Positions 22,101-64,000 of a DNA stretch of 64,000 nucleotides are shown here, piece after piece. The stretch is from Isoetes taiwanensis (Eukaryota > Streptophyta > Lycopodiopsida > Isoetales > Isoetaceae), in NCBI GenBank assembly GCA_021234155.1, contig JAJEKV010000014.1:22087513-22151512 (forward strand), given 5' to 3'. The position numbers and the translations under genes are program-made. The notes beneath the pieces are model-generated. The model saw nothing but the letters and a program-made list of their open reading frames with translations, searched no databases and was not told where the DNA came from. Within the stretch, counting starts at the first letter, position 1; each line of letters begins with the position of its first letter.

Positions 22101-23238
22101 CGCAATATCAAGACTCAGCATGATTAAAGACTCCCACTACATTTTATATAAAAAAAAATATATATATTCCTAATAGGACTAAATGAATTGTACAAACCTG
22201 GAATTATCATGCTCAAGATGATATGACCCCGCTTGATGGACTCATGTGGAGGGATGTTATAGTTTACAAGCATGACTGGCCATGTGGACCACGAGGCTGT
22301 CCGTTGCGAAAAGGGATTGAAACCATATGTTGCGAGACCAAAGTGAATATGTCTTGGTTCATTTTGAAATTCGGGCCATCTGTTATTTATAAATCTCCAT
22401 GCCTCCGAATCAGCGGGAATGCGCATAACTCCATCAGAGCTACAGTTATTTACATGCCAATCCATCAAGGCAGCAATCTCCTTTGTCCTAAACATATGTT
22501 TAAGTCTAGGAATTATAGGAAAATACCGCAATACCTTGCATGGAATGGTCGAGCCTTGGACATCTTTACGGTACCTCGACTCATTACATTTTGGACAATG
22601 AACCATATCCTTGGTGTCCTTATAATATAAGGTACACTCGTTTGGACATACATGGATGTTCTCGTACTCAAAACCAAGCGTCTTTATGAGCTTACGTGCT
22701 TCAGAACGACTAGAAGGAACCTTGTTTTCAGGAGGCAATATTTTGCAAATAAGTCTGCATACACAAATATATGATGATTAAGCCAACAAAGATAAACAAT
22801 AAAATTTCATATGTTCGAGAATTAAGAGTTAGGAAGGGAAGGAAGAACCTTAATATTGCATCAACTGCAACATTTGATATCTTATATTGCCCTTGCAAGT
22901 TGAGGAGGCATAGGTTAAATGTCAATCTCGATATTTTGCAGCCCTCGTATAATTTTGTTTTGGCATCCTGGATTATCTGATCATCAAGGTATTCAGCTGG
23001 ATCTACCTCAATGACTTCATCAACCTCAGAGGCGTGCATATCTTGTTTGTCAATGTCATTATCAATGCCTTGCATGAGAAACTCAAATTGAGCATGCTCG
23101 TACAACAAATCTTGAGTCGCCTCATCATAAGCATGACCAGTGTTTTGTTCCACATTCCCATTAACTATAGGATTTTCTCGTGCAATCTTTTCCATATCAT
23201 CACGGTGGAACTTTGATATACGAGGAGCATCTGGTACC
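19197..23238 (-). CDS. CACTA transposase, TNP2 family
   Basis: Multi-exon gene reading leftward. Order of parts: an N-terminal region with KLYEGCKISRLTFNL (22.9 kb); then SEARKLIKTLGFEYENIHVC with HCPKCNESRYR (22.7-22.5 kb); then GVMRIPADSEAWRFIN, FGLATYGFNPF and WPVMLVNYNIPPHE (22.4-22.2 kb), the TNP2 transposase core; MWTMHDYPGLS (21.95 kb); CVRCGDQITS (21.8 kb); and ELPYWRELKYTALLDPMHIMKNI (about 21.5-21.45 kb). Next come FPTSFFDIQ, AGPVSYRWMFFLERFM and an EGSMSEGW segment (20.9-20.5 kb), the DUF4218-like part; then a DUF4216-like exon with VRWFDAQLRG (19.86 kb). The acidic Glu/Asp/Gly-rich tail ends at 19197. Introns have GT-AG ends and most exons stay open, so the gene may be intact or nearly so. 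The exact start is not settled. It should cut and rejoin the element ends. Confidence 0.85.
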
Positions 23239-23649
23239 TATACCAAAAGAAGCATTTATCCAATATGTCAATAATACCCTTACTTTTAAGCCATTAACCA
23301 TTTTTTTCAAGCATTATAATAAATGTTTGAAATCTAACCACTAGGTATAAAGTTGCCAAGTAAGCACAACAATAAGTAGGAGCACATAAATTGAATAAAT
23401 AAAGAAACGAAAAATGAAAGAAACATAATGCACTTTGAATAGCATTAAGTGTTGCACATAGAATCTAAGCATTACACTTGATGGTGTTAAGTATGCACAA
23501 CATTAATATGAGTACATGATTGAAAAAAAAAAGCAAAGAAAAATGAAACAAGAACAAAGATTCAGATTTAATAAGATAAGTATCATTAATATCGAGTAGC
23601 GATTTATTAAAAATAAAAGTTTGTTTTAAATAACTAAAAGTTTTTATCT

Positions 23650-24813
23650 CTACAAAAACCGATCAGGTACAGTCTCATGGAATTCATAGTCCAAAAATAA
23701 CTCGTCGCCCTCTCTAAGGCTCTTGATAGCAACAACCATAACAAAGTGCTTACACATTCTTGTCATGAACTCCTCGCGATCATTACTTCTTTCTTCAAAC
23801 ATGCAATTGATGATATTTTTATTGGCACCACAGCTGTTGATCAGCCCCGCTATATTGCCATGTTCTTCCAAACGACCATCAATGTAAGATCTCTTATCCT
23901 CATTGTACTCTGATCTCATTTCCATAGTGCATGCATTACTGTTGCAACCGTATACCATCATAGAAAATGAATAATATGTTAATGCTTCCCACTCGGATGC
24001 ACTATACTCTGGACCTCCATAGATCATCAAAGGGACAACTGAATTATATCCAACACGAAGATTTTGGGCAATGAATAATCCCCTTCCAGATCCAGGGAGC
24101 GTAGACTGCTTTATTACATACCGACGACCCCAATAAGTGAATATGTCACCTAAATTGGGCAATGGACCATTAAATAGACCTAATCTTCGTCGATCTACAG
24201 GTTTTAATAATCTCTCAATGTGATGCGGCATTGGTAAATCAGGTATGTCACACCCCACAACTTGGTAACTACTTCCACCATGTACATTTATGTGGCTTGA
24301 TCCACGAGTCCTATAGTGGGATGCACTTTGTGCAGAATCTATTTCATCATCATCTCCAACATGTCTCCAAACTCCCCTCGAAAAATTGATTATGCCTCGT
24401 TGTGTTGAGTTCTGTTTAACCATAGAATGCTTTTTAAATAAAAGACTATGTATTAACTAAAATACAACTATTACCCCAACATGCTAGATAATAAAATAAA
24501 CCTATAACAAATCAAATCATTTACTAACCTGTCCATCTAGTGGTGTTGGGTTGTAGGGCACACCAAAACGCCTACAAAAGCTTTCAGGAGCGCCCCAATA
24601 AGTACCATTTGACTGCAAATGCCGTTCAATCACCGTAGCCAACCGGTTGTGCTGCCCCACACATGACTGACACCAACAAGGTTCAAACTCACCAGCATGG
24701 TGTCCTCGACGTGTCTCAGCTGCGCTGGCTGGGAGCAAACCTGCATCTATCAACTCTTTTATCCTCCTCCTCCTAGTACTAGGAGGAAGATTGCTAAAAA
24801 GGTTGGGATCCAT
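23650..24813 (-). CDS. SET-domain protein carried by the CACTA element
   Basis: Two exons: 24813-24529 (95 codons, begins MDPNLFSNLPPSTRRRR) and about 24411-23650. Exon 1 has a Cys-rich CWCQSCVGQ motif. Exon 2 carries SET-domain landmarks in order: LPGSGRGLFIAQNL (SAM-binding GxG), YIDGRLEEHGNIAGLINSC plus GANKNIINC (equivalent of the GNxARFINHSCxPN motif), and LREGDELFLDYEF (equivalent of GEELTYDY). These place it among SET lysine methyltransferases. The expected His of NHSC is missing (LINSCGAN), so activity is uncertain. Both exons are open and the splice is in phase. The start lies about 410 bp inside the right terminus, downstream of the subterminal array, so it is the promoter-proximal gene of the element. 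It is about 350 residues. A host gene fragment captured by the element is an alternative, but length and open frames argue for a functional cargo. Confidence 0.72.
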
Positions 24814-25369: not shown

Positions 25370-28300
25370 AGCAATATTGTTCTCGATCTTACGTATGAAC
25401 CACTCCAATACCCACTATTCTACCCACACGGCACTCCTGGATGGCATCCATGAAATGAATACAAAATGTCCCAAATAGATTGGTACCGAACCAGACTGCT
25501 ACATGAGCCACGCTTCTTACAGCTTGGCAGACTTTGCAATGAGTACCTAGTCGACATGTACTCGAGAGTTGAAAAAGAGCGCCTTAACTATATTGCAACA
25601 GAGAGATATCGCCGAAACTTAGCACACGAAGAAGATTTCATCGATGATGAGGACGAGGATGCTCGCCAAGGAACCCTGCCAGCGTCCTTCTTAGGATGCA
25701 AAAGATGGTGTTCAGTGCAAGTTGCAGACTCGCTAGCGTTGTCCAGAGAATATGGAAAACCTAGTTTTTTCATAACAATGACTACAAATCCCAATTGGCC
25801 AGAAATTAGATGCAAACTAGCACCTGGTCAAAATGCCTCGGATATCCCAACAATTGTAGTCAGATCATTCCATGAAAGACTCCAACACGCAAAAAACATT
25901 ATCCGAAAATACTTCAGCCCGTTATCTTACTTAATGCATGTGATTGAATTCCAAAAACGCGGGTTACCACATTCGCATATCGTTACAAAGACAACGCATG
26001 AGCTTCCAATCAGTATGATCGACGAATTAATTTCAGCAGAGCTACCGACAGATGAGACACTCAGGGCACAAGTAGAAAAATATATGATCCATAATCATTC
26101 AAGACGATGCCTCAAAGACGGTCAATGTTGCTATGGCTATCCAAAACCCATTAACCAAAAAACATACATTGACGAAAAGGGCTACGTGCAATACAGAAGA
26201 AGGACTGAAGCTGACACCAACGTCGTCCCTTACATGTCGTTCCTCTTGAGAGAACTAGATTGTCACGTGTATGCAGACGTTGCATCAACTGTGCACATAT
26301 TCGCATATCTCTATGGATATATATACAAAGGATTTGACACCACACGTTTCCATATTGAGAGACCGCCCATAACATACAGTCACAACTGCAAGAGAAATCA
26401 AGCACCACGAGCCAATCCAACACGACGCATACACATACTAAGAATGAAGTGCAGGATTATATATCAGCACGATACCTTTCGTCGATGGAAGCTGCATGGA
26501 GAACGATGTCATACCACATGACGGAGAAACATCCATCTGTAAAATGCCTTCCCCTCCATCTACAGGGACAAAACAGAAATCAATTTGGAAGAATTTCTAG
26601 CACATCCAGAGGAATGTCTGCATTAGACAGATACTTCTTACGGCCACTCGCCTCTGAATTTAATACTCTTACCTACATTCAATACAACGAAGAATACACA
26701 TTCACAACTTATAGAAGAGGCGTTCCGCTCAAGCCAACTGACCAATTTGAGCAAGAATATCCAGGTACTACAAGAAACATTGTTCATAAAAGATCCAAAG
26801 GCAAACTCGTTTGTGGAATAAGACTATTACTTCCAAAAGTCGGAGAAGCATTCTATCTAAGAACCATATTACTCCGCAGGGCCGCACGATCCTGGCATGA
26901 GCTCAAAACTCACGATGGCCAGCAATATGAAACATATCAGGAGACTGCACAGGCAATGGGCCTCATAGCACCGCCAACAGAGGCAATCAAAACAATGGAA
27001 GAAGCCGCCTCATGTTTGCAAACACCATCGCAGCTCCGCTTCTTATTTGCATTGCTCATATTAGATGGCGGACCCGCATTAGAACTATGGGACACATTCC
27101 GAATGACGGTTGACTTTATCGACCAATATCACGGAAACGAATCTGCTGCATCAAACGAGGGACTAATTGCAGTTAACAACATCCTAGTTCAACACGGAAC
27201 AACTACCGATGCATTCGGCCTTCCTACATTGACCATCACATCAAGGGACATTCAAAATGAGCTCTCAAAATTCCCCAATTATGAGGAATACCTAACTAAG
27301 AGTTCGAACATGTTTCAAATCATGAATAAAAACCAATCAACCATCTACAGCCACATCTCAAAGCTCATCGACAGTAAACATTCTCCTAACCCAATCTTCA
27401 TCTACGGCAAGGCAGGAGCCGGCAAAACATATGTCCTGAAAGCCCTATGCCTTCGAATACGAGGATCAAAAAACATTGTCCTCCCATGTGCTACTACCGG
27501 ACTTGCTTCATGTCTCTACCCTGGTGGTAGAACTGCACACTCTTTATTTCAAATCCCTGTCATCGAGAACAACATTAATCTACATTCGCTACTCGATCCA
27601 CACTCCCCAAGGGCACACCTAATAAGCCAAGCAACTGCCATTATATGGGATGAGTTTCCCATGGCTAACTGAGCAGTCATAGAGGCAGTTGACGTGTTGC
27701 TCCAAAAGATAACAGGAACGAATGCACCCTTTGGAGGAAAACTATTTATAGCAGCAGGAGATTTCAGACAAGTTGCACCAATCGTCAAAAAGGCAAGCAA
27801 GACAGCGACAATAAATGCTTCCATAATATCGTCGCACTTATGGAACCACTTCGAAGTTCTTGAACTCAATGAACCAATTAGGAATGCCGGAGATCCCCAG
27901 CTCGTGTCTTTCGTCGATGCGGTCAGACAAGGAACTCTACTGGAAAATGTGCCATTGACATTATTCAAAACCACCACAAACCCACAAGAAGCAGTTGACT
28001 TTCTATACAACAAACAAATCGTCAAAGACCCAGAAGCGTGTGAAAACAGAGGAATTTTATCTCCCAAAAACATCACTGTCGACGAATTCAACGACACAGT
28101 CATACAACTTCTCTCAGATCCAGACAAACTCTATTACAGCATAGACAGACTAACAGAAAACGACCAAACCGTAGACGACCACCCAATGGCAACAACCGAC
28201 TTTTTAAACGGTTACAGAGACCCATCATTGCCACAACACGAGCTTCGACTAAAGCCCAATACGATATGCCACATCACAAAGACACTCGACAGAGACAGAG

Positions 28301-28686
28301 GCCTCGTTAAAAATGCTAGGGTCATCGTAACCTCATTACATAACAGATTCGTGCAAGTAAAATTACTCACAGGGGACCCACAACAAAAAGACAACATTCA
28401 CCCCATATCACGTGTTGACTTCTTCAGTCGGCCAGAAAAATGGCCATGGACAATCCACCGACGCCAACTTCCACTACGACCCGCGTATTCAACAACATTC
28501 AACAGCTGCCTGGGACTCACACTCGACAAGATTGTCATTGACTTACGCAGTGAAGTCTTTGCCCACAGACAACTTTACACAGCACTCACCCGGATACGAA
28601 AAAGAGAAGATGTCCTAATTCTCCTAGACAAAGACAATAAAACAAACACTACAACCAACGTCGTCTACAAGGAGCTCCTCCCATGA
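25370..28686 (+). pseudogene. Helitron Rep-helicase protein, broken
   Basis: Reads rightward with Helitron landmarks in order. First is TYEPLQYPLFYPHG (25.39 kb). The Rep part has FFITMTTNPNWPEI, the HUH motif in EFQKRGLPHSHI, RRCLKDGQCCYGYPKP, and the two-tyrosine region AYLYGYIYKGFD. The PIF1-type helicase has Walker A GKAGAGKTYVLKAL, CATTGLASCL, Walker B IIWDEFPMA, AAGDFRQVAPIV and LYTALTRI. Breaks: TGA at 25451-25453, a frame change between about 26390 and 26450, and TGA at 27670-27672 immediately after the Walker B box. The two TGA codons could each be a single change from TGG or CGA. The N-terminal region is absent here; a matching N-terminal half lies in reverse at 5.2-6.8 kb. The normal role is rolling-circle transposition; this copy cannot make a full protein. 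Confidence 0.88.
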
Positions 28687-47830: not shown

Positions 47831-49085
47831 TTACATGCCATCAGATGCAAGCCACTCTAATAGCAAACTCAAAGAGCATATGGCTGCCATTGTCAGCTCT
47901 GTTCTATTTTAAAGGCTTGTAAAAATAAAATTTAATTCAACATGAATATAACTATTATTAAGCCTACACCAAAGCCTAAGCATGAATATAATTTTTCTGA
48001 AGTAGAGGCTTCCTACATTAGCCCTGTTACATCAGCCAAAACTGCCATAAGATTCAGCCAATATGCAACATTTCCTTTCCCTTCCCTAGTTTAGCAACAT
48101 TTATCCAGTATTCAGCAGTTAGAACTCATGAAGAGCAAAAATAATCCAGCTAGTTGCTACCCATGTCCAAAGAGAAATAGTTATCATGAACATGAGCTGA
48201 TCACTCATAATACTTTGAGAATCTGTTTATTGTATATGCCCAGCCGAGAGCGAGAACACTAACATAGCATACAAATGCTATCAATCTAGCAATCTAGCGA
48301 TACCCTCAAAACTCTAAAGACTCTTTCTACTGCAAGCCAGCCTAGAAGCTTGTTCAGAGCAAACTTACACTATCTACCATTTAATCTATACACAAATCTT
48401 ACTTCTTATCTACCACTTAATCTACCAAACTTAGAAAAAACACACCTGCAAATAGGCCAGACCTTAAGCAACTTCATCAGATGACTAAAAGCACAGGGAA
48501 AGCTAGCATATTGAACTTTATTGCACCTAGCAACTATCCGACTATAAAGCCATAGGATCAGTCTAGAAGTCTGAGATATATACATCTTTCTACGAAAATA
48601 TCAATTTGATATGCTTATAATATATATCAGATATTTTCAACTCTAACTGGAAAGATGATTATTTATCCATCCATTCACTTTCCAGAAATCGATTAAGAAG
48701 CAGAAATATACAATATACAAGACCTGTATAATCGCGCCTCCAGGCTTAACCGATTGTCCAGCATTCTTTGGCATTGTTGATGATCCATCTAACATTTGGC
48801 ATTCAGGCATAGCTCCAAATTGTTGTATCAACATCAATAGCCATGAAATAAAGCATTGGGCTTCTCACAAGAAATCATTATAGTTATAGCCTCCGTTCAT
48901 AACCAAACTCTATAACAAAGTTTTATGGGGCAAGGGAACAGGACAAAAAAACCTCAAAAGATTACCTCCAAAACACCAAATCCCTTAAACGTATATCTAG
49001 CAGCAAGTGTCGGATTCCCAGCCCTCAAAACATATTCTAACCCCTTAGCTGATCCAAGAAAACCCTCCCGGAACCGTGAAAATGC
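47831..49085 (-). pseudogene. Exon-like remnants of a small conserved-looking protein
   Basis: Minus-strand segments look coding. One, ending with a donor at 48966, contains FREGFLGSAKGLEYVLRAG and ARYTFKGFGVLE. Another (about 48862-48724) contains LIQQFGAMPECQMLDG and ends GGAIIQ before GTCTTG. A possible terminal segment (47896-47831) ends LLEWLASDGM and a stop. No initiator Met is visible for the first, and the first and second do not join in phase. This may be a pseudogene or an incompletely read gene. I do not recognise the family. The intervening and downstream DNA (47.3-48.6 kb) is AT-rich intron-like sequence. Confidence 0.33.
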
Positions 49086-49379
49086 TTAGACCCGAGGCGC
49101 CAAAACGCAAGAGATACTGCATGTATACGTACTTTTTTTTTTTCAAAAAAACCCCTTCTCCGTCTACGCACATGTATTCTACGGAATACATATGTGAACC
49201 CCCCTTGGTCCCGATTTATGTCTTTGTTGCTTCTTTATATCAAGGAAGTCATAACAATGATTATAATTTCGTCAATTATGCTACATTATGTTGATTGTCA
49301 TTACTTTATCTATATTGCATTATTTACGATTAATTCAATGTGTTTGCCTAAATGCTTGAATTTATCAAAATTACTATAG

Positions 49380-49545
49380 TGTGATGGCTAATATTCTACA
49401 TTTTGTAAACGTTTAGCCAAAAGCCAGAAACTGTGATGGAGAAAAATCATTTAGTTTAGCCAAGTGTTAGAAACTTCTAGCCCCAATTAGCTAAACTTAT
49501 TTTGGCTACACTAGAATATAGGAGTAGTAAATTATTCCATGCCAA
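49380..49545. repeat. Dispersed TTTAGCTAAA-type repeat, copy 2
   Basis: Same phrases as at 11.04-11.6 kb: TTTAGCCAAAAGCCAGAAAC, TTAGCTAAACTTATTTTGGC, GTAGTAAATTATTCC. It ends shortly before the ATAA target site of the large TIR element. Confidence 0.5.
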
Positions 49546-49962
49546 AATCACGCAGTAACTATGCAGTCACGCTGACTGTGCCTACCCCTTAGCCATTTTA
49601 TTGGTCAATTTTAGCATGGATATCTCGGCCGATCTTCCATCATGGTCATAAGGGTGAAAGTATGCTGGTGGGTAGCAAAAAAACGCGAACCCAGCACCCA
49701 GCACCAGCACCCTTCATACTATTTTTTCCACCCTTCACCAATTGAAGTGTAACCTATGCTATGCCCGTCACTTCACATAGGGCGTACCCGTTTCAATCAT
49801 AACCTTCTTACCGCCCACCGTAACTAATGACTGTGACCCAAAAGGGTAGCGAACTTTGAATTTGTAATTTGCAACCGTGCTCCCCACCTTTTGCTACTCC
49901 GGCCAAATAGCCCGCGGAGAAGAAGCTCGAGAATTTCCGGATTCGCTCTAGTATCAAAAACT

Positions 49963-52900
49963 ATGGTGAAGAAGGTTGTTAATCCGCCGGCTCAGCCAGC
50001 AATTCCAATGGATGCCATGTGCAGGGTAAGCAAAATGCACTGCCAATTTTGATGGCTTATGGTGCCCTGTTAATTTGTTTTTCTTGATTTCTTTCAGCCC
50101 AGAAGGAACGTGCCCCTAAGACCCGGACTGACCGATTGCCGAACCGAGGAGGACTTCCATGCTTATGCGGGTCTATCAAACGAGGGTGTGCATCCCTCTC
50201 AATTTCGAACGGATGTGATATCTCGCAAAGAGTATAATGAGGTTTGGGACACCAATGGTGTCATTCCCAACAAGACATCCATCGACAAAGTAAGGCCGAG
50301 CATGAAGAAGCTCTAATTGAGTCATTGAGCAAGATATACCCGTAAGGGTTGAAGAACGAGAAGTAAGGAAGACGGTTTCCTTTTTATTTGCATTCAACAA
50401 CCGCCAGAGGGCCAAGCAGATCCGAAAATTTCAAGGTCAATTGTGCAAAGAAAGGGCAGAAAAAGCGAGCCTATTCGAGCAAGGTCAAGAGTGAACCCGG
50501 CTGGTGACCCCCGCGGAACACAACAGAGCCCAAAGAAATCACAGCAGACAACAAAGACACGAAAAGCATAGCGAAAAAGCCACCCTCGGTAATCGCCAGA
50601 AAATTAGAAGGGAGGTTGTCATTCAGAGTACCGCAATGTGTCCAAAGAAAGATTCTCACTTTATGGGAAAAATATTTCCCGCCCGAAAGCATGATCCAAG
50701 ATATGCAGAAGCCCTAAAATTGCAAAGAAATGACTTAGTGTCAAAGAAGGAACAGGCTGCACAATCTCAGGCAAAGGGAAGCTTCTTCTCGGCTGCAGAG
50801 GGGAAGTTGAAGACCATAAAGGATAATATTACACGTCTTCAAGCACTGCCAGATCCTAATGCAGGTGTCTCTGCTGAGATTCATTCTTTGGAGAGGGAGA
50901 AAGATATGGCAGAATATATGCTGAAGTCCCTACTTGAAATGGGGGGTGGGCCAATAGATCAAACCTGTAGAAAAAAGGTGGTCGCACTAATCACGAGATT
51001 GTCAACAACGAGTCCCTCCTTGCAAAAGTCCAGCAGCACTTACAGAATGTCACCAGGCTGAGGGAGATGACCAAGAGATGTATTCCAGGATGATTACACC
51101 CTCAGCCTGCGGATGAAATGTGGACATCATTATCACGTTAGCTGCACCAGTTTGCTCATGGAAAAAGGATGCTGCCTCGAGTGCACAGAGACCATTCCTA
51201 CAGGGTTAGTGCAGGAAATAGGTAAGCTTAATACAGTAAAGCAGGAAGTGTTGCATGCTGGAACAGCTCACAAAACCGAGAAGAAGATAATTGATGTTGA
51301 TGAGCATGTAGCCACAAGTTCTGATAGCAGCAGGAAAAGGAAACAGGTCAACACACCAAAAAGTAAAAGGACCCCAGGATCAGCCAAGCACAAGTCCACA
51401 AGGGTTCACACTCCACAGCCAAGACATGGGAAAAAAGGTACATGCCTGTTTTCAGGCTCTGATTTTGAATTGGCAGCATTAGAAGGTGCTGTAGACATTG
51501 GACAGCAAACTACCGGCCAGTCTTGAAGACAATGCGACAGACTGCATCCACAAAGGCTGGAGACACCAAAGCATGCAGAATCCAAGGGTGATTCAAGTAG
51601 TACTGATGGTGCCAATAATTATAGTATAGTTCCAAATTCTGCAGCTGCCTCTACAAAGGCCTCCTCTAACACTCTTGCTGCAGGGAAGGAAAACGATGGC
51701 GAAGATGTCGGCAATCAGATTCAGACAGTCGTTAAGCAGGTGAACAGGTTGACACGGTCAAGGGCCAGGAAGGTTGTGGAAGAAGAAAGTGAGGGTGAGT
51801 CAGAAAATTACCTTGATGAGGACGTCCCCATAGAAGTAGTATTTGGAAAGAAAAAACATGGCTAATGTAATTTTGCCTTATGTATTTCAGGCAGGCAAAC
51901 CTTGATTTTGCAAGACAACCATAAACCATCAGCCAAAAGGTTTTTGTTCAAACAATTAATATATTTGATCCCTGTTTTATTCCACCTTTAATGTGCAAAT
52001 TTTGGTTTGGATTATTCATTCAACTTAGGCTTCTGTAAAAACTTGTCTGCAGAAAAAGAAGGCAGCCAATGGTTATACTTAGTAAATCTGATGAAGAAGA
52101 CAACAGATAAAGAAGTGCCAGCACAAACTCTAACATACAAAAGGTGCCTGTTATCCTGTTACATTTCAGAATGTGTATTCTCTACATATTTCAGTTGTTA
52201 ATTGGAGCTCATCCTTGCATGCAGGAGAACAAGACAGGTCGTGAATGAAGAAATCGAGGACAAAGGCACTGCAAGGGTTACTGATAGCCAGGAAACACCC
52301 ATACATTGGGGGCAGGGAGATACTATTAAGGATGTATCTGACTATGGCTATCAGCACTCTCCATCATCTGGTAGCAAAGATAAAGCGAGTCCAAAGGTCG
52401 CAAAGAATGTCCAAAGACCTCCCGATAGCACTTCCCAGCAGAGTCCAGCACACATCGCAGCACAGACAAGCACGATGCAGCACACATTGACAGTGGTTGC
52501 AAACGTCCAGGGATGGACACCCAGACGGAAGTTGATGGTGCTTGACGTAAATGGTGTATTGGCACAGACACAACAGAGGAGAATGAATGGGAAAATCTTG
52601 CCTCCACCACAAACGAAGCATGTTGTAAAAGAAACTGCAAGTAAGTACCTCATTTGCAGACTAGGGTATCATGAGTTTGTGGAGTGGGCACTGCAGAGGT
52701 TTGATATTGTGATTTGGAGTGCTTCTCTACTTCGGAATACAAGGGATATGGTGGATGCATTGTTCCCTGATTTGCAGACCAGATTCTTGAAGGTATATGG
52801 TCAAGAGCATTGCTATGCATGCGAGCATCCATACAGACCAGAAAAGCAAATTTTTTTCAAGGAGTTGAAGGTTGTACTTGAGGATTTTCCTCAAAATCAT

Positions 52901-53251
52901 GGTATGATTTTCTTGGTTGATGACAACCTACACAAAGGGTTTCTAAACCCTGCACACACAACCCTTCCCATTATGCCTTTCAAGGGGCAAGAAGAGGACA
53001 ACTTTTTGCAGAAGTTTGTGTGTCCAACTTTGGAATACTTGTCTTCTCATACAGTACAGGAAACGATCTCACAAGTTGACATCACTGATGCATGGTTGGA
53101 AGAGGAGACAGTTGCAGTGCTGGATTACTGCCTCAACAACTATCTTGTCTCGGCCTACTATATCCTCAATGCTCCATTAGAAGTACAAAGGCAGCTGCTG
53201 GGCACCCTTCCTGGCGACCAGCATGACTCTGAAGACTTCGATGACTCATGA
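49963..53251 (+). pseudogene. Coiled-coil / RING-like / FCP1-NIF phosphatase-like protein of the TIR element
   Basis: Exon 1 is 49963-50025 (MVKKVVNPPAQP), spliced to 50098 onward (RRNVPLRPGLTDC). A helical, basic region follows in shifting frames (50.3-51.0 kb; SLEREKDMAEYMLKSLLEMG). A RING-like MKCGHHYHVSC then GCCLEC lies at 51.11-51.19 kb. A polar linker has RKRKQVNTPKSKRTPG. Small exons precede a 3' exon from about 52225 to 53251. That exon is fully open and holds a FCP1/NIF HAD domain: motif I LMVLDVNGVLA (DxN in place of the usual DxD), motif II IVIWSASLLRNT, motif III IFLVDDNLHKGF. At least three frame breaks in 50.3-51.1 kb suggest the copy is decaying, though unseen small introns could explain some. 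NIF domains dephosphorylate the RNA polymerase II tail or other nuclear targets. Gene position and orientation suggest it belongs to the transposon rather than the host. Confidence 0.62.
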
Positions 53252-53772
53252 AGTAACCATTGTACACTACTTTTTTGTAATATATATGTATGATTACTTT
53301 GTCTTATCTTGAGTATTGAGTGATCTTGAGTGATGTCTCTAATCTTGAGTGTACAATTTTCTGTAATATATATCAAGCTTATTCTCCAATACTACAAGCA
53401 GTGTAGTCACGTACGTAGTGTACCGTTCGGGTACAGTACGTCTTCTTACGTACTGTACGTTATTCGTACCTTAAAGGTTTTGCGTACTTTAAGTACGTTT
53501 AATAGCAGTTGTCTTATTTGGCGTACAGTACGTAAAGTACGTAGTGTACGTTATGTACATACAGTACACATATAAAAAACTTATTGTATTTTTAGTTTTT
53601 TTTTAGACCATAGTAGTAATTAAGACCATTGTAAATACATAGTAGTGTTATACATGAGCACAAAAACAGAATAAGTTTTCTGAAAAGACATTATCATAGT
53701 AGTAGCCAATAGTAAAAAGTTATTGCAACAATTCTCCAAAATTATGACTTCCATAGACTTAACATCTAATAC

Positions 53773-56700
53773 TTATTGCACTTCATCATCATTTTCTTCA
53801 TCTTCTTCAGATTCTGTTTCAGTAGAGGAGGATTTCAACATCTCCATCTCTTCTTCTGTATCGTCATCTTCTTCATCATAATGACCTTCCCCCTCTTCCA
53901 CCACTTCCTCAAATACTGCTGCGTCTTCATTATTACCACCTACTTCTATTTCTGATGCAGCTGTAGATCTTGTTACGGACCTTGTCCGAACTCTTACTCT
54001 CCTAGAGCTACTATTAACAATACCTCCACTACCACGCCTTCTACGATGACGAGATGTACCTTGTGATGTGGATGCTGCAGCTGCTCTAGACATGCTCCTT
54101 GTGGTTCTCCTAAGGCTCATTGTCTCTTCAAAATAAGTTTGATAAAATTCTCTATTTATGTCATCAGTTTCTTCGGAGGAGGCAACTCTGGAGTCCTCTC
54201 AACATCCACTTCAAGTGGATTCACCTGCAAATAACGGCATATTATGATCAATATTCAATGGCGGCCAGTTTTCAGCCCCAGAAAATACATTAATTTCAGC
54301 TCTACAATTTCAGCTTTACATAAATTTCAGCAGCTAACTTTCAACCACAAAAAGTACATTAATTTCAGCTCTACAATTTCAGCTTTACATAAATTTCAGC
54401 AACTAATTTTCAACCCCAAACAATACATTAATTTCAGCTCTACAATTTCAGCTTTACATAAATTTTAGCAGCTAATTTTCAATCCCAAACAACACGTTAA
54501 TTTCAGCTGTACAATTTCAGCTTTATATAAATTTTAGCAGCCAACTTTCAGCCCTAAAAAGTACATGAATTTCGCATTTAGCTCTACAATTTCAGTAGTC
54601 AAATTTCAGCCAAAACAATACATGACATATAGCTCTACCATTTCAACTCTACATCAATTTTAGCTCCATAATATCAGCTCTACATGATAGTAGAAAATAG
54701 ATATGAATAGATAGATAAAATACCTGCATTGGTGATGTGTTCACAGTCTCAAACTTTCGAACAAGCCTCAAATTTTCACGCACATACACCAAACGTTCAA
54801 GCTGAGCTGGTTTCAACCTATTCCTTATTTTAGTATGAGCAAGAGCATGAGCATTCCAATTTCTCTCTGCTGCCCCAGAAAAACAATCCTAAACCAGAAA
54901 TAAATAAATCATTATTCTACAGGAAAGATATCATAAAATAAGGTATTCATTTACATACTTGTGACAAGACTCTCACGGCTAATGCTTGAAGTTTTGGAGT
55001 CCTACCACCAAAAGTTTCCCACCATGTTACAGGCTTGCGCATTGAGATCTCCTCTTTTGCCAATGCATAGCTAAAGGATCCAGTTCCATTGCGATACTCG
55101 TGAAGTTCGCGGAATAGAATATCACACTCTTCGGTTGAATACAATCTTTGTGTATATTTCATCCATGCATCCAACAAATCGGGATCTAAAAAACTTGCTT
55201 CTTCTCTCCACAAAGGGTGCAAAATATGCGCAACAAGATGAATGGGCCTTTTAAACCATTCCCAACGCTGGTCAAACAATTTAAGAACATCTTCAAACCT
55301 GCGATGTAAATAAGATGCCATATGAATAACAACCTTAAATCTGATTTATAAAACATGCCCGCCTAATATATATTAAATTAAACAAACCAGCAATTTCAAT
55401 TTCAATAAAAATCAGCAATATCAATTTCTGAAAGAACAGAATTTTAAAGTCAAAATCAATGGTTTAACTAATTAAATACATATGTTGCTAAAATCAGCAG
55501 CTTAACTAATTAATTACTTACTTGGACTTATGGGCATTTTCTTCTTCCAATCCCTTAGATAATACATCTTTGCTCCTGCGCATGAATTCGTACAACAACC
55601 CAATTGTTGACCCTTCCTTATCAGTAAGGCACAATACGCTATATAATGGGTCCATGACCCTCAAGACAATATTGAAGGAAGGCAATGTTGTAGGATCAAG
55701 AATGTAACTTTTCACATTCAATGCATCAGGTTTCCTACTATCCGTCCAATTCCTCCAATGATCACTCACCACGGTTTGCTCAAGAGCACTCCAAACCTTT
55801 TGGAGGCGTGCCAACACAATGTATGTGACCCCAAATCTTGTCTTGCAAGGCTTCAAAAGAGCATGGCTGCTTATAGAGCTAAATATTTTCCTTGCATTTC
55901 TTTTTTTTGCAAAGAGTCGGACAATAGCATTTGCTTTTGCTACAATGCTTTTCATCCATGGAAGCTCACCCATATCTTGCAACAGCAAATCTAAACAATG
56001 AGATGCACATGGTATCCACACAAGACGTGGAAACTCCTCCTCAAGTAAACTTCCCATACGCACGCAATTGGAGGCATTGTCTGAAATTACTTGCACTACG
56101 TTGTCACTACCTACCTCTTTAATTGCATCAGAAATTTTTTCCGCAAGCCATGTACTATCAGTTCTTATGCTGACATTGCTACAATCGATGGACTTGAGAA
56201 ACATCGTACCATAGCAGCATGACACTAAAACATTAACAAGCTGTCTATGGCATACATCAACCCATCCATCCGTTAAAATTGTGCACCCATACTTGGGCCA
56301 TAATGCCCTTATCTTTGCTGTTTTTTCTTGTAAAGTGTGCATTTCAGATTTTCGACCCTTGTTTCGCATGTAATGATAACTGACACCACTATGTTTGTCT
56401 CCTATTTGAGAAAAGGCTTCCAACATACTTCTCCAACATGGCAGTTTCAGCAAATTAAATGACAAGTTAGCTTCAACAATGCATCGCATTTCCATCACGT
56501 TTGCATAATTCTTCCTTTGCATTTGTATGATGGTACCTTTTTTTAGAGTTTGTTGTTTATATGATGATGATGGTGGCCTTGAAGAAGTAGGACTAGCTGC
56601 AGCAACTGCCATGCCTGAAAAAGATGCGCTTTCATCACCAGTAGATGACATAGGAGCAGAAATAACCGCAGTTGCTGCGGGTTCATCAAAGGTACAGCCC

Positions 56701-56946
56701 GTCCCCATCATCATTTCTTCTTCCATTTGAATAGTTGATGGCTGAATTCTGCCTCCTACTTCTATCATAACGGCTTCTGGCACTTGTGGACAAGCTTCAA
56801 CACCATACTTTGTCTCCCTTGCAAGGTGCGCAACCATCCTTGTTTTTGTTCCAGTGCAGTGTTTGCCATAAAACATCTATCGCCATTGGCTAGCTTTTGG
56901 ACGTTAATGCAATATTTATTCCAATAAGGAGATTCCTTGCGCGGCA
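53773..56946 (-). CDS. hAT transposase (DUF659 and C-terminal dimerisation regions)
   Basis: Leftward gene. A start at 56946 (MPRKESPYWNKYC) leads into a BED-like region with TRMVAHLARETKYGVEAC, but a frame change near 56865 separates them. The main exon (56876-55518) has a Ser/Ala-rich linker, LPCWRSMLEAFSQIG, then DUF659/RNase H-like landmarks: CTILTDGWVD, VVQVISDNASNC and WIPCASHCLDLLLQDMGE. Later exons give RFEDVLKLFDQRWEWFKRP and ILHPLWREEASFLD (55321-54959). An exon at about 54890-54722 has AAERNWNAHALAHTKIRNRL, the hAT dimerisation motif. The last exon (to 53773) is Arg/Ser-rich then strongly acidic (EEDDDTEEEMEML). Catalytic Asp residues are visible in LTDGW and ISDNAS. Apart from the N-terminal break the protein looks intact. 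Confidence 0.8.
54243..54590. repeat. 69-bp tandem repeat in a hAT transposase intron
   Basis: TAATTTCAGC starts at 54291, 54360, 54429 and 54498, exactly 69 bp apart, with diverged partial units on both sides. Because 69 is a multiple of three, a plus-strand frame reads a 23-residue repeat (NFSSTISALHKFQQ), which I regard as fortuitous. Confidence 0.9.
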
Positions 56947-57272
56947 TTTTGTTGCAACTTGCATTGAGAAACATAAATAAAATTAGTATCTTTTTGACAA
57001 AATAGAAGCAAGAAAGGCAAACACTATCTTCAAACATATATTTTGATTTATTACCTTCTTTAAAACTCTAAGATTGCTGCCATTGCTATGTCAATATCAT
57101 CATGTTATGTCAATGTCATCAATATCTGATCATGCTGCCATTGCTATGCCAATATCATCAATATCTGATCTGCAAAAACAAAGCATATTATGTCATGCAT
57201 TAATTCAAAAGACTTACTAAACAAAATAAAGAATCCATCTACTAATCATCGATAAGTTTAATAAGCATTCAA

Positions 57273-57725
57273 CTATCTAAGATGCAGTGCTCCAAGAGAT
57301 CTGAACCAGTGGTTTGCTATATAGGGCTCAGATATACAAGACAATGCATCCAATGGGGCCCTAATTTCCATGCTAATAACGTATACATTTGCATCTAGCA
57401 AAAACGAGAAAATGCTGCTCACAGGTCCATTCAATTCCACAAGATTCTGATAACAACCTATGTGAGGTTTGAGCAAATGGCTTACAAATTTATTATGCAA
57501 ATTTTGCCTCGCTTCTTCTTTGACAGCAGATATATGAGCTTGGAGTTGACCAATCTCTGCCAATGCCCGTGCCAGATTCTTTTCCCTCTCAACTAGCTGA
57601 TGCTCCATAGATAACAAACATGCCTCATCCTTTTGAGCTTCCTCCAATACCTTCTTTAACTCTTGGCTAAATACATTCTGTGAAACGAGCCCACTGTTTA
57701 GAACATGCAATAACAATGTAAGCAA
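57273..57725 (-). pseudogene. Unidentified coiled-coil coding fragment inside the hAT
   Basis: A 150-codon frame with a heptad-rich stretch, LKKVLEEAQKDEACLLSMEH then VEREKNLARALAEIGQLQAH. Upstream and downstream codons look less coding-like. It is not part of a known hAT protein, so it may be a second captured host fragment or an N-terminal exon of unknown type. Confidence 0.4.
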
Positions 57726-57984
57726 TGCAATTAACTATGCATGTACATATCAATACCATTTATGCAAGAAAGATTATTAAATTTATACCTTGAGGTGCAT
57801 GTGCCGCCAACGCTGAAATGCAAGAACTGCATTAACAACATTTCCTTGAGAATGTCCTCCATTAACATGACTGTATTGTGGTTGATTAGTCATTATAAAG
57901 TCTTCTTTGAGGTCAGAAAATGCATCGAAGAGGCAAGTTTACCTTTTACGTCTTTGCTACGAAGAGGCAAATATTTGCTGAAAA

Positions 57985-58768
57985 TCAGAAGCCACGAAGG
58001 ATGCCCATGAAGAAATTGCTGCCTTAGATTCTCCTGCAACGGCTTCAGAATCTGCTATAACCAAAGTGGGGGACCTAATTGATAAATATCTTGCAGAAAT
58101 TGCACCTGATCATAACTTAAAGCTGCGCAAGTTTCAAAAGCTTACCCAGGCATTACCGGTGTTTGCGAGGCCAACTCATGATGGACTTTACAGAGCACTT
58201 GATATATATCTTGAGGTATGGGAATCTTATTGATATACCTGCATTGGATAAATGATCTTTAGTTTTCCTTAATTTCTACTCTTCTTGAATATGCGCATTA
58301 CAAATAGTTCTGACTTGCACATCTCTAGCTACTGATTTCATATGTTTTCTGTTTTTGTTAGGCACACCCAAAGATTACGTGTTTTTGAAACAATTGGAAC
58401 TTTGCAAAGCAATGAGCTAATAAAGACTAACTTTTGAGTCTTGTAAGCATGTTGCAAAGAATTCTAGGCTGCCCCCCAAGATGGCTTTAGAAGTGATCTT
58501 ATTACAACAATCTAAGCTCAGATCTACTGTAGGGGAGTGTTTTTTGAAAGAAGGGGATGGAAATTTATTATCTCCAAAGAAAAGCAATCTGCAGTTTCTG
58601 AAGCAGTCTCTACCTACGGAATACAAAAATGTTATACGCCAAAATCAGGAGTTAAAATCTGATCTTCACAAAATGCAAAACAGAGTAGTTGAACTTGAGA
58701 AGCTATGCAAAACCATGAAGTCAAATATGGCCAAACATGACAAGTTGGTAAGGAGATTGGTTTGCTAG
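57985..58768 (+). pseudogene. Captured NPH3-family gene fragment with intron
   Basis: Exon 1 (to 58215) reads KVGDLIDKYLAEIAPDHNLK, then LTQALPVFARPTHDGLYRAL and DIYLE, the core of the plant NPH3 domain. After a GT-AG intron (58216-58361) exon 2 opens with AHPKIT, then breaks (TGA near 58387). It resumes as CKHVAKNSRLPPKMALEVIL, LRSTV and a coiled-coil NQELKSDLHKMQNRVVELEK, ending at 58768. NPH3 proteins are adaptors for CUL3 ubiquitin ligases in phototropism and auxin transport. Here the BTB domain and most of the C-terminus are missing and the frame is broken. Retention of the intron shows DNA-level capture, not retroposition. Orientation is opposite to the hAT transposase. Confidence 0.75.
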
Positions 58769-58946
58769 TTTTCCGCTGCATTCCTACATCATGGTAGGCA
58801 CATTTACATGTACATATTGATAATGGATACTATTTACGAAGAAGATGAAGCTGAGCGAACATAGAAATACATCCTGATCCTGCTCTTGAACTTGCATATC
58901 CTTCTGGATCATTTGCACAGGTGCTCCATTCGAGAACCTAACATCC

Positions 58947-59255
58947 ATAACATAAAGATAGAAGGTAGTAGAAAATGCACCTGCTCAGCTCGAAAATGCA
59001 CCTGCTCAGCACCAGAACACCTTGCAGTAAATCTTTAAATCTCCATATGTTTGTGCAACAAAGAAAACACAAAGATAAATCAATAGATTCCCAATGTTCG
59101 CAACTGAGAGTTATATCAGTATCTCTTGCTTTGCATTGCCTAAATATTTTGCCATAGCTAAACATAAAGATAGAAGGTAGTAGAAAATGCACCGCCAAAT
59201 CGAAAATGCACCTTTCCAAAGACTGAACACCTTGCAGTAAATCGATTTTAAAGAC
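58947..59255. repeat. Direct duplication of about 95 bp, offset 212 bp
   Basis: CATAAAGATAGAAGGTAGTA followed by GAAAATGCACC and CACCTTGCAGTAAATC occurs at about 58951-59040 and again at 59163-59250 with substitutions. In the non-coding right part of the hAT. Confidence 0.75.
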
Positions 59256-59877
59256 AAGAAAGTAAGAAAAATCAAGCACATCAAGATTTGTCTGTGAGAG
59301 CTCTCACCTGCTAAAATCGTCCGGTATCCATTAGCATAGTATTAGCATAGTGGTGTTTGACGATTCCTCATGGCTCCACCTGCTGCCATCGATCTCTAAT
59401 GGCCTCTTCGATTCTCTGTAATCGATTCTCTGTAGGAAGAACCAGATGAAATGCGGCGTCACTATGCTAACTTTAGGGCACAAAAATGTTAAGGATACGA
59501 AATTACACTATTGTATGGTTTAACCCCCCTTAAAAAAAATTTTTTTTTTTACCCTTCATTCTTAAAGTACGAGACGTACTATATATTCTCTAAGGTACTG
59601 AACGTACATTAACGTTGCGTACGCGTACGAAAACAACACTGACTACAAGCATTGTTTCCAATACTAAAATACTCCAATACAGCAGTCCAATACTACAAAC
59701 ATTGTCTCACAAGCATTGTCTCCAATACAATGATCAAAATTTGAGACAAGTACACAAGTAACTATAGACCTGTTATAATGATAAAACAACTAGGTCAAAG
59801 CATATTCAACCTTCATATGGCGTAGATCACAAGGATCATCCGGTGAGTAGCCCGCTCAAGGAAAATCTGTTGGTGCC

Positions 59878-62800
59878 GTGAATCGATTCATCTCAAACTT
59901 GATAGCCGATACGTGATGACCGTCTTTGGAAAGTCGCTTTTGTCTTCAAGTAGCTACCAACTACCATCCGGGTCAAGGCAAAGATAGTACAAACTAGCCA
60001 ACACATGTTCATCCACATTGAAGGTCTGACTTGACTATCCTTGACAATTCTCGCCAAGGATATGCCTCGGCTTAACACATTTGACCACATAGAAATCAGA
60101 TTCTCCCTCGATTTCCCTCCTACAACAACAACAAAGTTATCACCTTCCTCTACGCTTCCACTAAGCCATTCTTCATCACCTTCAAAAATGCCTCATCAAT
60201 TTCGGCCTTCAAGACCTTCACCAAGAGACTTAGTCGGGCTTTAGTGTAACATATTTCCAATTCTTCAACCCGTGCTTGTTCACACAAGATGACCAGGTTT
60301 CCTTTCAAACAGCTTACCACGTAAACAACTTAAACCTCTATGAGCCACCCTTTGTGCTTGATTTGGCCAAGTATGTCCTGATGTTTGTATTTGCTTGGTC
60401 CCTTCCACCCCCGCACGGTCCCAAATGGTCCGGTCCCTATCAACATCATCCTTTCCAATTACCCGGCACCTGCAAGGAGACAACAAGTATTGCATCTCAC
60501 AGACAGCATAATATAGCACTACTCATCACATTACACAGCTTCACGTGACAAAGACTTAAAGCGGATGAAAGCACTATTCAAAGACATTACAGCCGGTTTA
60601 CAGGCAAAGACTACTCAAATGTAATCACGCCGATGAAAGCATAATACCTTTTGATGTCCTCGTTGTTGGTACCTTCATTCCAACGAAGTTGCGACCATTG
60701 TGCATCAGCAGCACCCCTAAATCTCACCCCATCATACTTGAGCTGCTCTCTAGTGAATGCCCCTTTAAGGACTGCCCCTTGCCCATCGTGCTCTCCCTTA
60801 CCATGGGCTGTCCCAAAGAAATTCCATACTATTTCCTTCCCTAGCTCATGGTGATATCTTGGTAGGAAATAGAATGGCCGGCAGATTTGAATTGGCTAGA
60901 ACAACCATCCCACCAAACTATATGCCCGAGAAATCTACACCATTTGATACAAGCCATGAATTGTGCTTTCTAAGACAAGGCCGCACAAAAAGTGTCATGA
61001 AGCTTGTCATCACTCAAGTAAAATGGGTTTCCTTCAATAGCTTTCGATCCTTAAATCGATGTCCATCCTATACGTGATGTGGACGAGAATTGTTATCTGG
61101 TCATTGTGCCAATGCTGGCTTTGAACCTCCCTTTGTATTTTTATGCCATAATTCTCTGCAAAATCAATTACAGAAACAATGGTGCCATCTTGGATATTGT
61201 CCAGTAACTCCCCGAATTGCATGGCCTCGCCATCTAGCCCTCAGAATTGTGTGGCACGAATATCTTCAATGTGGAACACGATATGAAATGAAATCCTTCA
61301 CTTCCGCTTCTCTTGTAAGACAATCTAAGGACCGGCTTTGGTCCTTTTTTTTTTTTCCCTTGCCATTTGAGGTCTCGTCTTGTGTTGCGGCTTCCGGTTT
61401 GGTCCCACCAAACTTCCTTGGATTTCTTACTTTTGTTTCCCTTCTTCTCAACTTGTCTTTGCGGCCTTCCCGGCCGTGTCCCACCAGCTACCTTGGATTT
61501 CTTGCTTTTGTTCCCCTTCTTCTCGAAACTTGTGCTTTGCGCCTTCAGTCAGGTCCCACCAACTACCTTGGATTTCTTACTTTTGTTTCCCTTCTTGGTG
61601 GCATTGGCCCTTTTCTTTCTCTGGCCACACGGCACCTCCTTGGTAACATAGTCGCAAACCACCAGCCTCTTCGTCTCCACCGAAATCAGAAACAAGGTCG
61701 TAGCATAAAAAAATGTAAGATTAGCGCCAGTTGAAAGCACAAAAGCGTTATTCGGCGGATGACAAAGACATATCGGATGTTTCAAAGATGCAATAAAGAG
61801 AGTATTACCTTTTCAAACGTCTTCCATTCAAGCAAGAACTCATGATTCTCTCTTTCTCTTGGACATATAGGAAGAGTTTTTATGCCACACTTCCGACATG
61901 TCCGCATCAAGCGATCATGTTTATGCCATTCTTCACCCTCGCTCTTGTTGCAAACCCACGGACCTTCGAGCTCATTGGTTGAGTCATAACGATGTTGGTA
62001 CGGGCCGTGACACTTCTCACCAGTCCACAGACCTCGCAGGTGCACTTGCACTCTTCACCATGAAATCCGGTTTTATTTTGACCTTAATGTATTCGGGGCT
62101 ACCCCGGCATACTCCAACTTCATATGGTATATGCAACAACAGTTTCCCTTTACGATACTTTCTTTACATAAATAGGCTTCAACTTCTCGAAAAGCCTTTA
62201 AGCAAACAGGGTGTTCGTGGATGTGCCATTTTGTATTGTTGAAATAGTCGCAATTGAATGGTGGCCGTTGGTTAGAAATATTTATGCAATAATAATAGCA
62301 AAGAAAAATTTGTATGGAAACTTATACCCGTGTGACCTCCATAAGGTGCAAGGGATAAGAAATTCGAAGCCCCGACTCTCCAACAAAGGTGTTCACAACA
62401 TCTTTCTTGCAAGGAGAGACTCTCGCTATTTTGTTTCCGAATTCGTTATGCTTTGCTTTGCAAGCAGGGTGAGAGAATCGCACCTCAACCTCCTTTGGAA
62501 GCTAGACCACGGACCATTTCCAAGGACGACTTAGATTTTCTTAATGCAAAGCGGTTGCAATTGTTGACCTCATGCAACCTATCATAAGAAATATTGCACA
62601 TTAATCAATGAACATATCCCAAAGATCACTCGCCAGATACAAGCACTTAAAAGCATGAAGAAGCACATGCATGAAAGCAAGAATTAGATGTACCTAACAG
62701 CCCCGCCATAGTGGAATTGCATCTCGATTTTGTGGAAGAAGCCATCACCGATGTCGAGGTTCGGCTCTCCAAACATCATGGTTCCTTTGCCTCTTTGTGG

Positions 62801-63226
62801 CTGCCATTGTCTGTTTCAAGTTGTTGAGCAAAGACCCCACCTTGCACTCTTTTGGATTTGGCAAAATACCGTGGTTCCGAGATTTCCATTTCGTGGTGAT
62901 GAACAACCCTCTTCATCACGTGCCTTGAGTTCGGTGAATGCTTTTGGTGAGCTTGTTGAAGTAATCAACTACAAGCTTGGCTATTTCTTGCTCGTCTCCT
63001 CGCCGGATCCTCCCCTGTTCAACCGCCGCTTTCCTCATCTTATTCCGTAATCAGTATTCTCTCTTTCTCTCGATCCAATTTCTTGTAAATTGCGAGGAAA
63101 CCGATCTTCACGCGATATTTCCCGTGTTGCATTGACATCCAACAAATGAACAATGTATTGGAATTCATCGGCCGAAAAGTCCAATGCTAAACGTGTGATT
63201 GCCTCCGTGCCCGATCGTGGAGCCAT
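59878..63226 (-). pseudogene. DDE-like transposase of the large TIR element, with frame breaks
   Basis: Reads leftward from ATG at 63226 (MAPRSGTEAITRLALDF), 333 bp inside the right terminus. Landmarks in order: a GEPNLDIGDGFFHKIEM segment (62.77 kb); a Cys-rich WHKHDRLMRTCRKCG then FLLEWKTFEK (61.95-61.81 kb); a basic linker with three KKGNKSKKSK units (61.65-61.43 kb); and LDNIQDGTIVSVIDFAENYG with EVQSQHWHNDQ (61.2-61.1 kb). Then come a WWDGCSSQFKSAG segment (60.92 kb), WNFFGTAHGKGEHDGQGAV (60.8 kb) and a C-terminal region ending near 59878. DFAENY, DGCxxQF and HGKGxxDG recur in a DDE transposase family I know mainly from animal genomes; the Asp residues are candidate metal ligands. Several frame changes and stops remain after allowing introns, so this copy is probably inactive. 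Exon limits are not fully resolved. Confidence 0.65.
61430..61650 (-). repeat. Three tandem Lys-rich repeats in the transposase linker
   Basis: The phrase KKGNKSKKSKV (or E) occurs three times, each followed by a GGT/WWD-type segment, spaced about 70 bp apart. It resembles a repeated nuclear-localisation signal. A TGA lies between the first two in one frame. Confidence 0.65.
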
Positions 63227-63508
63227 GAAATTCCCCGAGAGGGAGAATAAGTGAATTGGAGGGAGAATTTTCGCGCCATGAGGTCGTGGGTAGTTCTCGG
63301 GCTCGATCCAATTTGTAACGTATCACCATTCGCTAAAAATCCAAATAGAAATCCAACAATCATTTTCCTAACGGTTCGTTGGTGAGGTGGACGTGCGAGT
63401 ACATGAAGGGCGTCAAAAATATGACGGGCAGTTATGCCCACCAGCACCCAAATTAAGCAAAAGCAGGGGTGCTTTAAGCGGGCTAAAACCCTGCTATAAG
63501 CATGCTAC

Positions 63509-63532
63509 AAGCATGCGTCCGGACGCATGCTT
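63509..63532. repeat. Perfect 24-bp palindrome beside the right terminus
   Basis: The half-site AAGCATGCGTCC is followed directly by its exact reverse complement, 27 bp inside the right end of the large TIR element. The left end lacks an equivalent, so the ends are asymmetric apart from the terminal repeat. Confidence 0.95.
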
Positions 63533-63563
63533 TTGATACCCACCAGCATACTTTCACCCATAA

Positions 63564-64000
63564 TGAGAGGGACTGGAGGAGTTGATCCTTGCAAACCAAA
63601 AATATCCTCCAGTGCATCCCGATTCAACTAGTTCCGAGAGGGCAAATAACTGCCCTCAAAATGCGCAGTAACTAGGTTACTGTGCAGTTTGGTCGAATGA
63701 TTCTGCCGGACGGAATTTTTATTGTCGTGATTCCGCCGGAATGGATACCCTGTGAAGGTATCACCAAAACTAGGGTAACTCTCACAGTGCTATGGCTATG
63801 GCAACCTTATGCTATGGCATATATTGTAGCATGCGCGTCTTTTTTCTGAGCTATAACAGAGTAGATGGAGTTTTTGGCTATGGCAGTGGGAACTTGTGTT
63901 GGCGAAGAAAGCTTAGCCATGGCAGAGCATAGTATTGTAGGCCTTATTTTTGTTCAGGAACCATGGCTATGCTATGGAGTATATTTGCTTTGTTTGGTGT
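63564..64000. other. Right flank, no gene recognised
   Basis: No coding motif. The words GCTATGGC and CCATGGC recur about eight times between 63790 and 63985 on both strands, a weak local repeat. Confidence 0.45.

Follow-up and report, generated by a model that had tools for sequence, protein, structure and literature searches.

A decayed transposon of Isoetes taiwanensis with a putative DDE/DDD-type transposase gene and a NIF-domain gene between its inverted ends

The maize transposon MuDR carries a transposase gene and a second gene that run towards each other, each starting near a terminal inverted repeat (TIR). Published descriptions, which we draw on as excerpts, give Sola elements a DDD transposase, 4-bp target-site duplications, lengths mostly of 2-9 kb and TIRs of 11-1124 bp (PMC10741241), and place them in plants including Physcomitrella, though rarely in flowering plants (PMC10741241, PMC9033089); the fern Ceratopteris is also listed as having Sola repeats (PMC6890710). 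In some Sola2 elements the duplications are AT-rich and AWWT-like, and Fanzor genes have been captured (PMC3627910); from Ectocarpus, a Sola1 with an opposite-strand accessory gene is described (PMC12477816). Accessory proteins are likewise described in the Kolobok lineages KolobokP, E, H and D, the second protein of KolobokP being encoded on the complementary strand (PMC9587614). Here we describe an element found in 64,000 nucleotides of the lycophyte Isoetes taiwanensis (contig JAJEKV010000014.1 of assembly GCA_021234155.1, positions 22,087,513 to 22,151,512 of the forward strand; this whole stretch is hereafter called the window). With slightly better than even confidence, we read it as an old, broken cut-and-paste TIR transposon of Sola, or of a close sister group, that carries an accessory NIF gene (Table 1).

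Ends and transposase of the element

When up to 3 mismatches were allowed, the 23-bp TIR occurred in the window at just two places, the two ends of the element, and none of the shuffled sequences gave two matches (0/100; mean 0.00). The window holds nine exact inverted 23-mer pairs; eight are local repeats, and the TIR pair alone has members separated by more than 1 kb. Apart from the TIR pair, comparison of the element's DNA with the window gave matches confined to the element and to a hAT element nested within it. The ATAA flanks are compatible with a 4-bp AT-rich target-site duplication or, in this one copy, with a 3-bp TAA duplication next to a chance A. Removal of the hAT and of one copy of its own duplication leaves 7,657 bp (~7.66 kb), in which the transposase gene and the second gene are convergent, each starting about 0.3 kb from its own end (presumed starts at candidate ATGs 311 bp inside the left end and 333 bp inside the right end). 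The matching flanks, identical inverted ends, compact unit of about 7.7 kb and convergent genes had all been named in an original prediction made from the DNA letters, and each was borne out. Close to the ends, copies of GTGCTGG (on the left as in Table 1, with an additional copy of this type by the right end at 63438-63447) are candidate transposase-binding motifs. A perfect 24-bp palindrome occurs at 63509-63532, immediately inside the right TIR, and a scan of positions 48000-64000 against Rfam gave no match.

A protein search with a hand-stitched transposase core of 291 amino acids recovered 11 relatives (P0001-P0011) at E <= 0.001 among 293 candidates, with best local identities of 41-49% covering 36-61% of the query. 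The minus-strand tblastn matches of these relatives to the window fall in a Cys-rich segment, in the core and in two C-terminal stretches, the last two being short and weak (E 0.008-0.019; last 170 bases of the gene). No single open frame spans the gene: the core matches run in one frame at 61228-61067, in another at 61023-60880 and in the first again at 60880-60695, and a third reading frame matches part of the middle of the core. Because the core matches change frame in this way, this copy cannot make the transposase.

The acidic motifs of the relative P0002 fall at D90, D173 and D214 (spacing D-82-D-40-D); the first Asp is kept in all eight relatives having the motif, the second in 7/10 and the third in 8/8. 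The Glu of HGKGEHDG, close to the third Asp, is kept in 8/8 as well, and weighs against our interpretation, because it makes the DDD assignment less firm and a Sola-like element less likely. Homology to the 11 proteins confirms a transposase, and a single TIR element with an unusual transposase of the DDE/DDD type is supported; the original prediction had called it DDE, and with Asp and Glu both kept, either form would fit. A low-confidence structure model of one relative resembles integrases and mariner transposases, and a Foldseek search with the low-confidence transposase model yielded nothing at E <= 0.001, its highest-ranking rows being NurA. We found no match at E <= 1 in a sequence search of the PDB with the transposase alignment (A1). 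None of the 5 relatives scanned against Pfam, nor of the 3 scanned against each of NCBIfam and PHROGs, scored above the cut-off of any model. In viral_contigs and genome_contigs, neither of which is a plant collection, 6 and 15 stretches, respectively, matched a pattern in searches with the same alignment, and 0 were confirmed. Searches for the TIR in viral_contigs and for the left half of the element in plasmids gave no match and, these not being plant DNA, say little. Matches of P0009 to MarC (0.27) and DUF5541 (0.35), of a transposase piece to UAE_UbL (0.058) and of P0008 to an unnamed PHROG (0.23) were below the cut-offs and were discarded as chance.

Table 1. Coordinates of the element and of its features in the window
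Feature	Position	Strand	Remarks
TIR DNA transposon	49652-63559		13,908 bp; exact inverted ends and ATAA flanks
Left target-site duplication ATAA	49648..49651	.	read directly from sequence
Left TIR GGGTGAAAGTATGCTGGTGGGTA	49652..49674	+	23 bp, exact
GTGCTGG copies, three, overlapping or close	49691..49710	-	k-mer listing; resemble TIR core GCTGGTGGG
Accessory gene (approximate limits; inferred model)	49963..53251	+	ATG 49963; first intron ~50026-50097; last exon open
Accessory gene, 5' coding-like part	50321-51842	+	codon-usage reading; in-frame stops 50492, 51059, 51068, 51524
RING-like Cys/His segment, partial	51098..51184	+	zf-RING_2 E 0.011, 16.4 bits against cut-off 27.3
Open last exon, 349 codons	52202..53251	+	NIF/FCP1-like (HAD) domain ~52529-53047
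hAT target-site duplication ACTACAAG, left copy	53391..53398	.	8 bp
Nested hAT element	53399..59641	-	6,243 bp; transposase exon on - strand; ends CAGTGTAGT/CAGTGTTGT
hAT target-site duplication ACTACAAG, right copy	59642..59649	.	8 bp
Transposase gene, broken	60127..63226	-	candidate ATG 63226; relatives match 62218 to 60127
Catalytic core: DFAENY, DGCSSQF, HGKGEHDG	60695..61228	-	tblastn with P0001-P0011; more than one reading frame
Tandem repeat, 75-bp unit, 2.6 copies	61401..61596	-	encodes Lys-rich KKGNKSKKSK units; between Cys-rich part and core
Right TIR GGGTGAAAGTATGCTGGTGGGTA	63537..63559	-	23 bp, exact
Right target-site duplication ATAA	63560..63563	.	read directly from sequence

The second gene and its place in the family

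The last exon of the second gene is a single open frame, longer than the longest frame (263 codons) in 500 mononucleotide shuffles of positions 49652-53398. It encodes a NIF domain (PF03031, E 2.2e-18; 66.9 bits against a curated cut-off of 21.8) that covers profile positions 1-155 of 160. Dullard-like and HAD-IIID models of NCBIfam matched far below their cut-offs (TIGR02251, E 6.3e-8; TIGR02245, E 1e-5), the UBLCP1 structure 3shq matched weakly (E 0.005), and a single-sequence fold of the exon was uninformative (mean predicted local distance difference test score 36.0). Motif I of the domain reads LDVNGVL from 52541 (DVNG, with the Asp at 52544) and departs from the DxDx(T/V) pattern; FCP1/SCP phosphatases have DxDx at this place. 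Because the motif reads DVNG instead of DxDx, phosphatase activity of the protein appears doubtful, which weakens the earlier view of it as a phosphatase acting on Pol II. The change in motif I could stem from decay of this copy.

Upstream of this exon the reading is less clear-cut. The partial RING-like match falls below its cut-off, and its first Cys pair is absent from the matched frame by eye, so that a RING in the accessory protein is suggested at most; of the RING/NIF-phosphatase-like protein originally predicted, the NIF part is upheld. A count by eye of several frameshifts in the 5' part was set aside, as the codon-usage model keeps one frame with four stops. That model is a rough guide, having been trained partly on the NIF exon, and it scored the transposase 0 (no coding called). 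Matches of the 5' part to RapA_C (0.0031) and Fungal_TACC (0.13) were below the Pfam cut-off and were taken as chance. Weak hits also hinted at a coiled coil in the accessory protein, for which we make no claim. Neither gene is intact in this copy, a decay that is absent from the original prediction.

The compact convergent layout favours the NIF gene as a true second gene, lying, as had been predicted, inside the element at the end opposite the transposase. The protein searches weigh against this reading: the NIF exon gave no homologs at E <= 0.001 among 702 candidates in one search, and its residues 105-345 gave none at E <= 10 among 135 candidates in another. These searches are word-based and reach only proteins sharing short words, so the negatives are weak; set beside the 11 relatives of the transposase, they mildly favour related elements that lack the NIF gene. 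Between a true second gene and a gene absent from related elements, the evidence seems to us about even.

The strongest rival, to which we give somewhat less than an even chance, holds that the NIF gene stems from a single capture of host sequence, a gene or a fragment, by this copy or a small subfamily (transduplication, Pack-type) and is not a working partner. It would have to accommodate a gene that starts about 0.3 kb from a TIR, converges with the transposase gene and occupies about half of the element, a layout like that of MuDR and other two-gene elements, and that ends in one open frame of 349 codons. It would account for a search that finds relatives of one gene and none of the other, as elements related to this one may lack the NIF gene; the NPH3 fragment in the nested hAT suggests that capture may occur in this genome, and the excerpted literature reports capture of Fanzor genes by Sola2 and other transposons (PMC3627910). 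No description of a NIF/FCP1 gene in a transposon was found among the literature matches listed, in their titles and abstract openings.

The nested hAT and other elements of the window

The element nested between the two genes combines an 8-bp duplication with a hAT-type transposase, its exon matching DUF659 (PF04937, E 2.4e-46, in 55518-56876), which we take to be a domain associated with hAT transposases; together with its ends, these features agree with its original identification as a hAT. Within it, a fragment of NPH3, a plant gene family, lies at 57985-58215 on the plus strand (PF03000, E 3.5e-24) and is the clearest pointer in the sequence itself to a plant host; positions 58442-58765, a by-eye candidate continuation of this fragment, gave no NPH3 match in the Pfam scan. 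The hAT also contains a tandem repeat at 54270-54573 (69-bp unit, 4.4 copies).

Elsewhere in the window, a Helitron at 25454-28683 with a Rep-like domain (PF14214, E 1e-35) is nearly intact, its codon-usage reading being broken by a single stop (27670) and a single frameshift (near 26429). A CACTA-type element occurs at 20012-24456 (Transposase_21, E 8.5e-29; DUF4218, E 2.4e-19) and is adjoined on the same strand by an open frame with a SET domain (PF00856, E 2.2e-5), which may be a gene carried by this element.

Superfamily placement, possible mechanism and known systems

Judged by its size and TIR, and with motifs and flanks compatible with DDD and a 4-bp duplication, the outer element is likely a degraded member of Sola or of a close sister group. 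Membership of a different DDE/DDD superfamily, or of one still unnamed, is a lesser and still appreciable possibility: its transposase relatives matched no above-cut-off model in the domain collections searched, the third catalytic acid may be Asp or Glu, and a TAA duplication beside a chance A fits the same flank letters. Against this alternative, Sola as described in the literature matches the element in size, in TIR and, if ATAA is read as a 4-bp AT-rich duplication, in its flanks; moreover, Pfam includes transposase models for several superfamilies, and none of those of other superfamilies matched. That the two TIRs mark two separate small elements with unrelated genes between them, which might be argued from a single copy being known, is very improbable, as the ends are exact inverted repeats in the expected orientation, with matching ATAA flanks and no further match in the window.

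For the Sola-like element that we favour, an intact transposase would have an RNase H-like active site and bind the TIR, and perhaps also the subterminal GTGCTGG repeats; it would excise the element and insert it into an AT-rich target, which would give rise to the ATAA duplications. The NIF/FCP1-like (HAD) gene, perhaps with a RING, would be an accessory, either a standing partner or a gene taken up from the host at some point; since the second aspartate is missing from motif I, its product would most likely bind a nuclear host protein rather than dephosphorylate it. Decay of both genes would have come later, and the hAT would have inserted between their 3' ends. A more specific proposal, which we consider unlikely, is a Sola-like plant lineage whose standing second protein, a NIF/RING pseudo-phosphatase, would anchor the transposition complex on a nuclear phosphoprotein (e.g., the Pol II tail) or keep the element from being silenced; no such accessory role was found among the literature matches listed, as far as their excerpts extend. 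If other copies keep the pair, an FCP1/NIF-type protein would extend the set of accessory proteins known from eukaryotic transposons and tie a transposon to nuclear phosphoproteins of the host in a way that can be tested, and the element would also document a type of transposase with no above-cut-off Pfam, NCBIfam or PHROGs model among the relatives tested. Were the NIF gene a one-off capture, this would be ordinary gene capture.

Compared with known systems, the element shares its convergent two-gene layout with MuDR, which differs by its long TIRs, 9-bp duplications and transposase family. With the NIF/FCP1/SCP (HAD) phosphatases and UBLCP1 its protein shares nearly the whole NIF domain, but has DVNG and not DxDx. 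Kolobok resembles it in combining a DDD/E transposase with a second protein; as described in the excerpt, Kolobok generally has TTAA duplications (3-5 bp in KolobokP), a C/DxxH and zinc-finger signature, and a nuclease or helicase as the partner, compared with NIF here (PMC9587614). From Sola the element differs in its ATAA, which is outside the AWWT form of some Sola2 (PMC3627910), and in its partner, as the excerpted Sola descriptions make no mention of NIF or RING (PMC10741241, PMC3627910, PMC12477816, PMC9033089). By those same descriptions it resembles Sola in its length (7.66 kb without the hAT) and 23-bp TIR, both within the published ranges, and in bearing a putative accessory gene, as Sola elements sometimes do; its flanks and acidic motifs would be compatible with a 4-bp AT-rich duplication as in Sola2 and with DDD.
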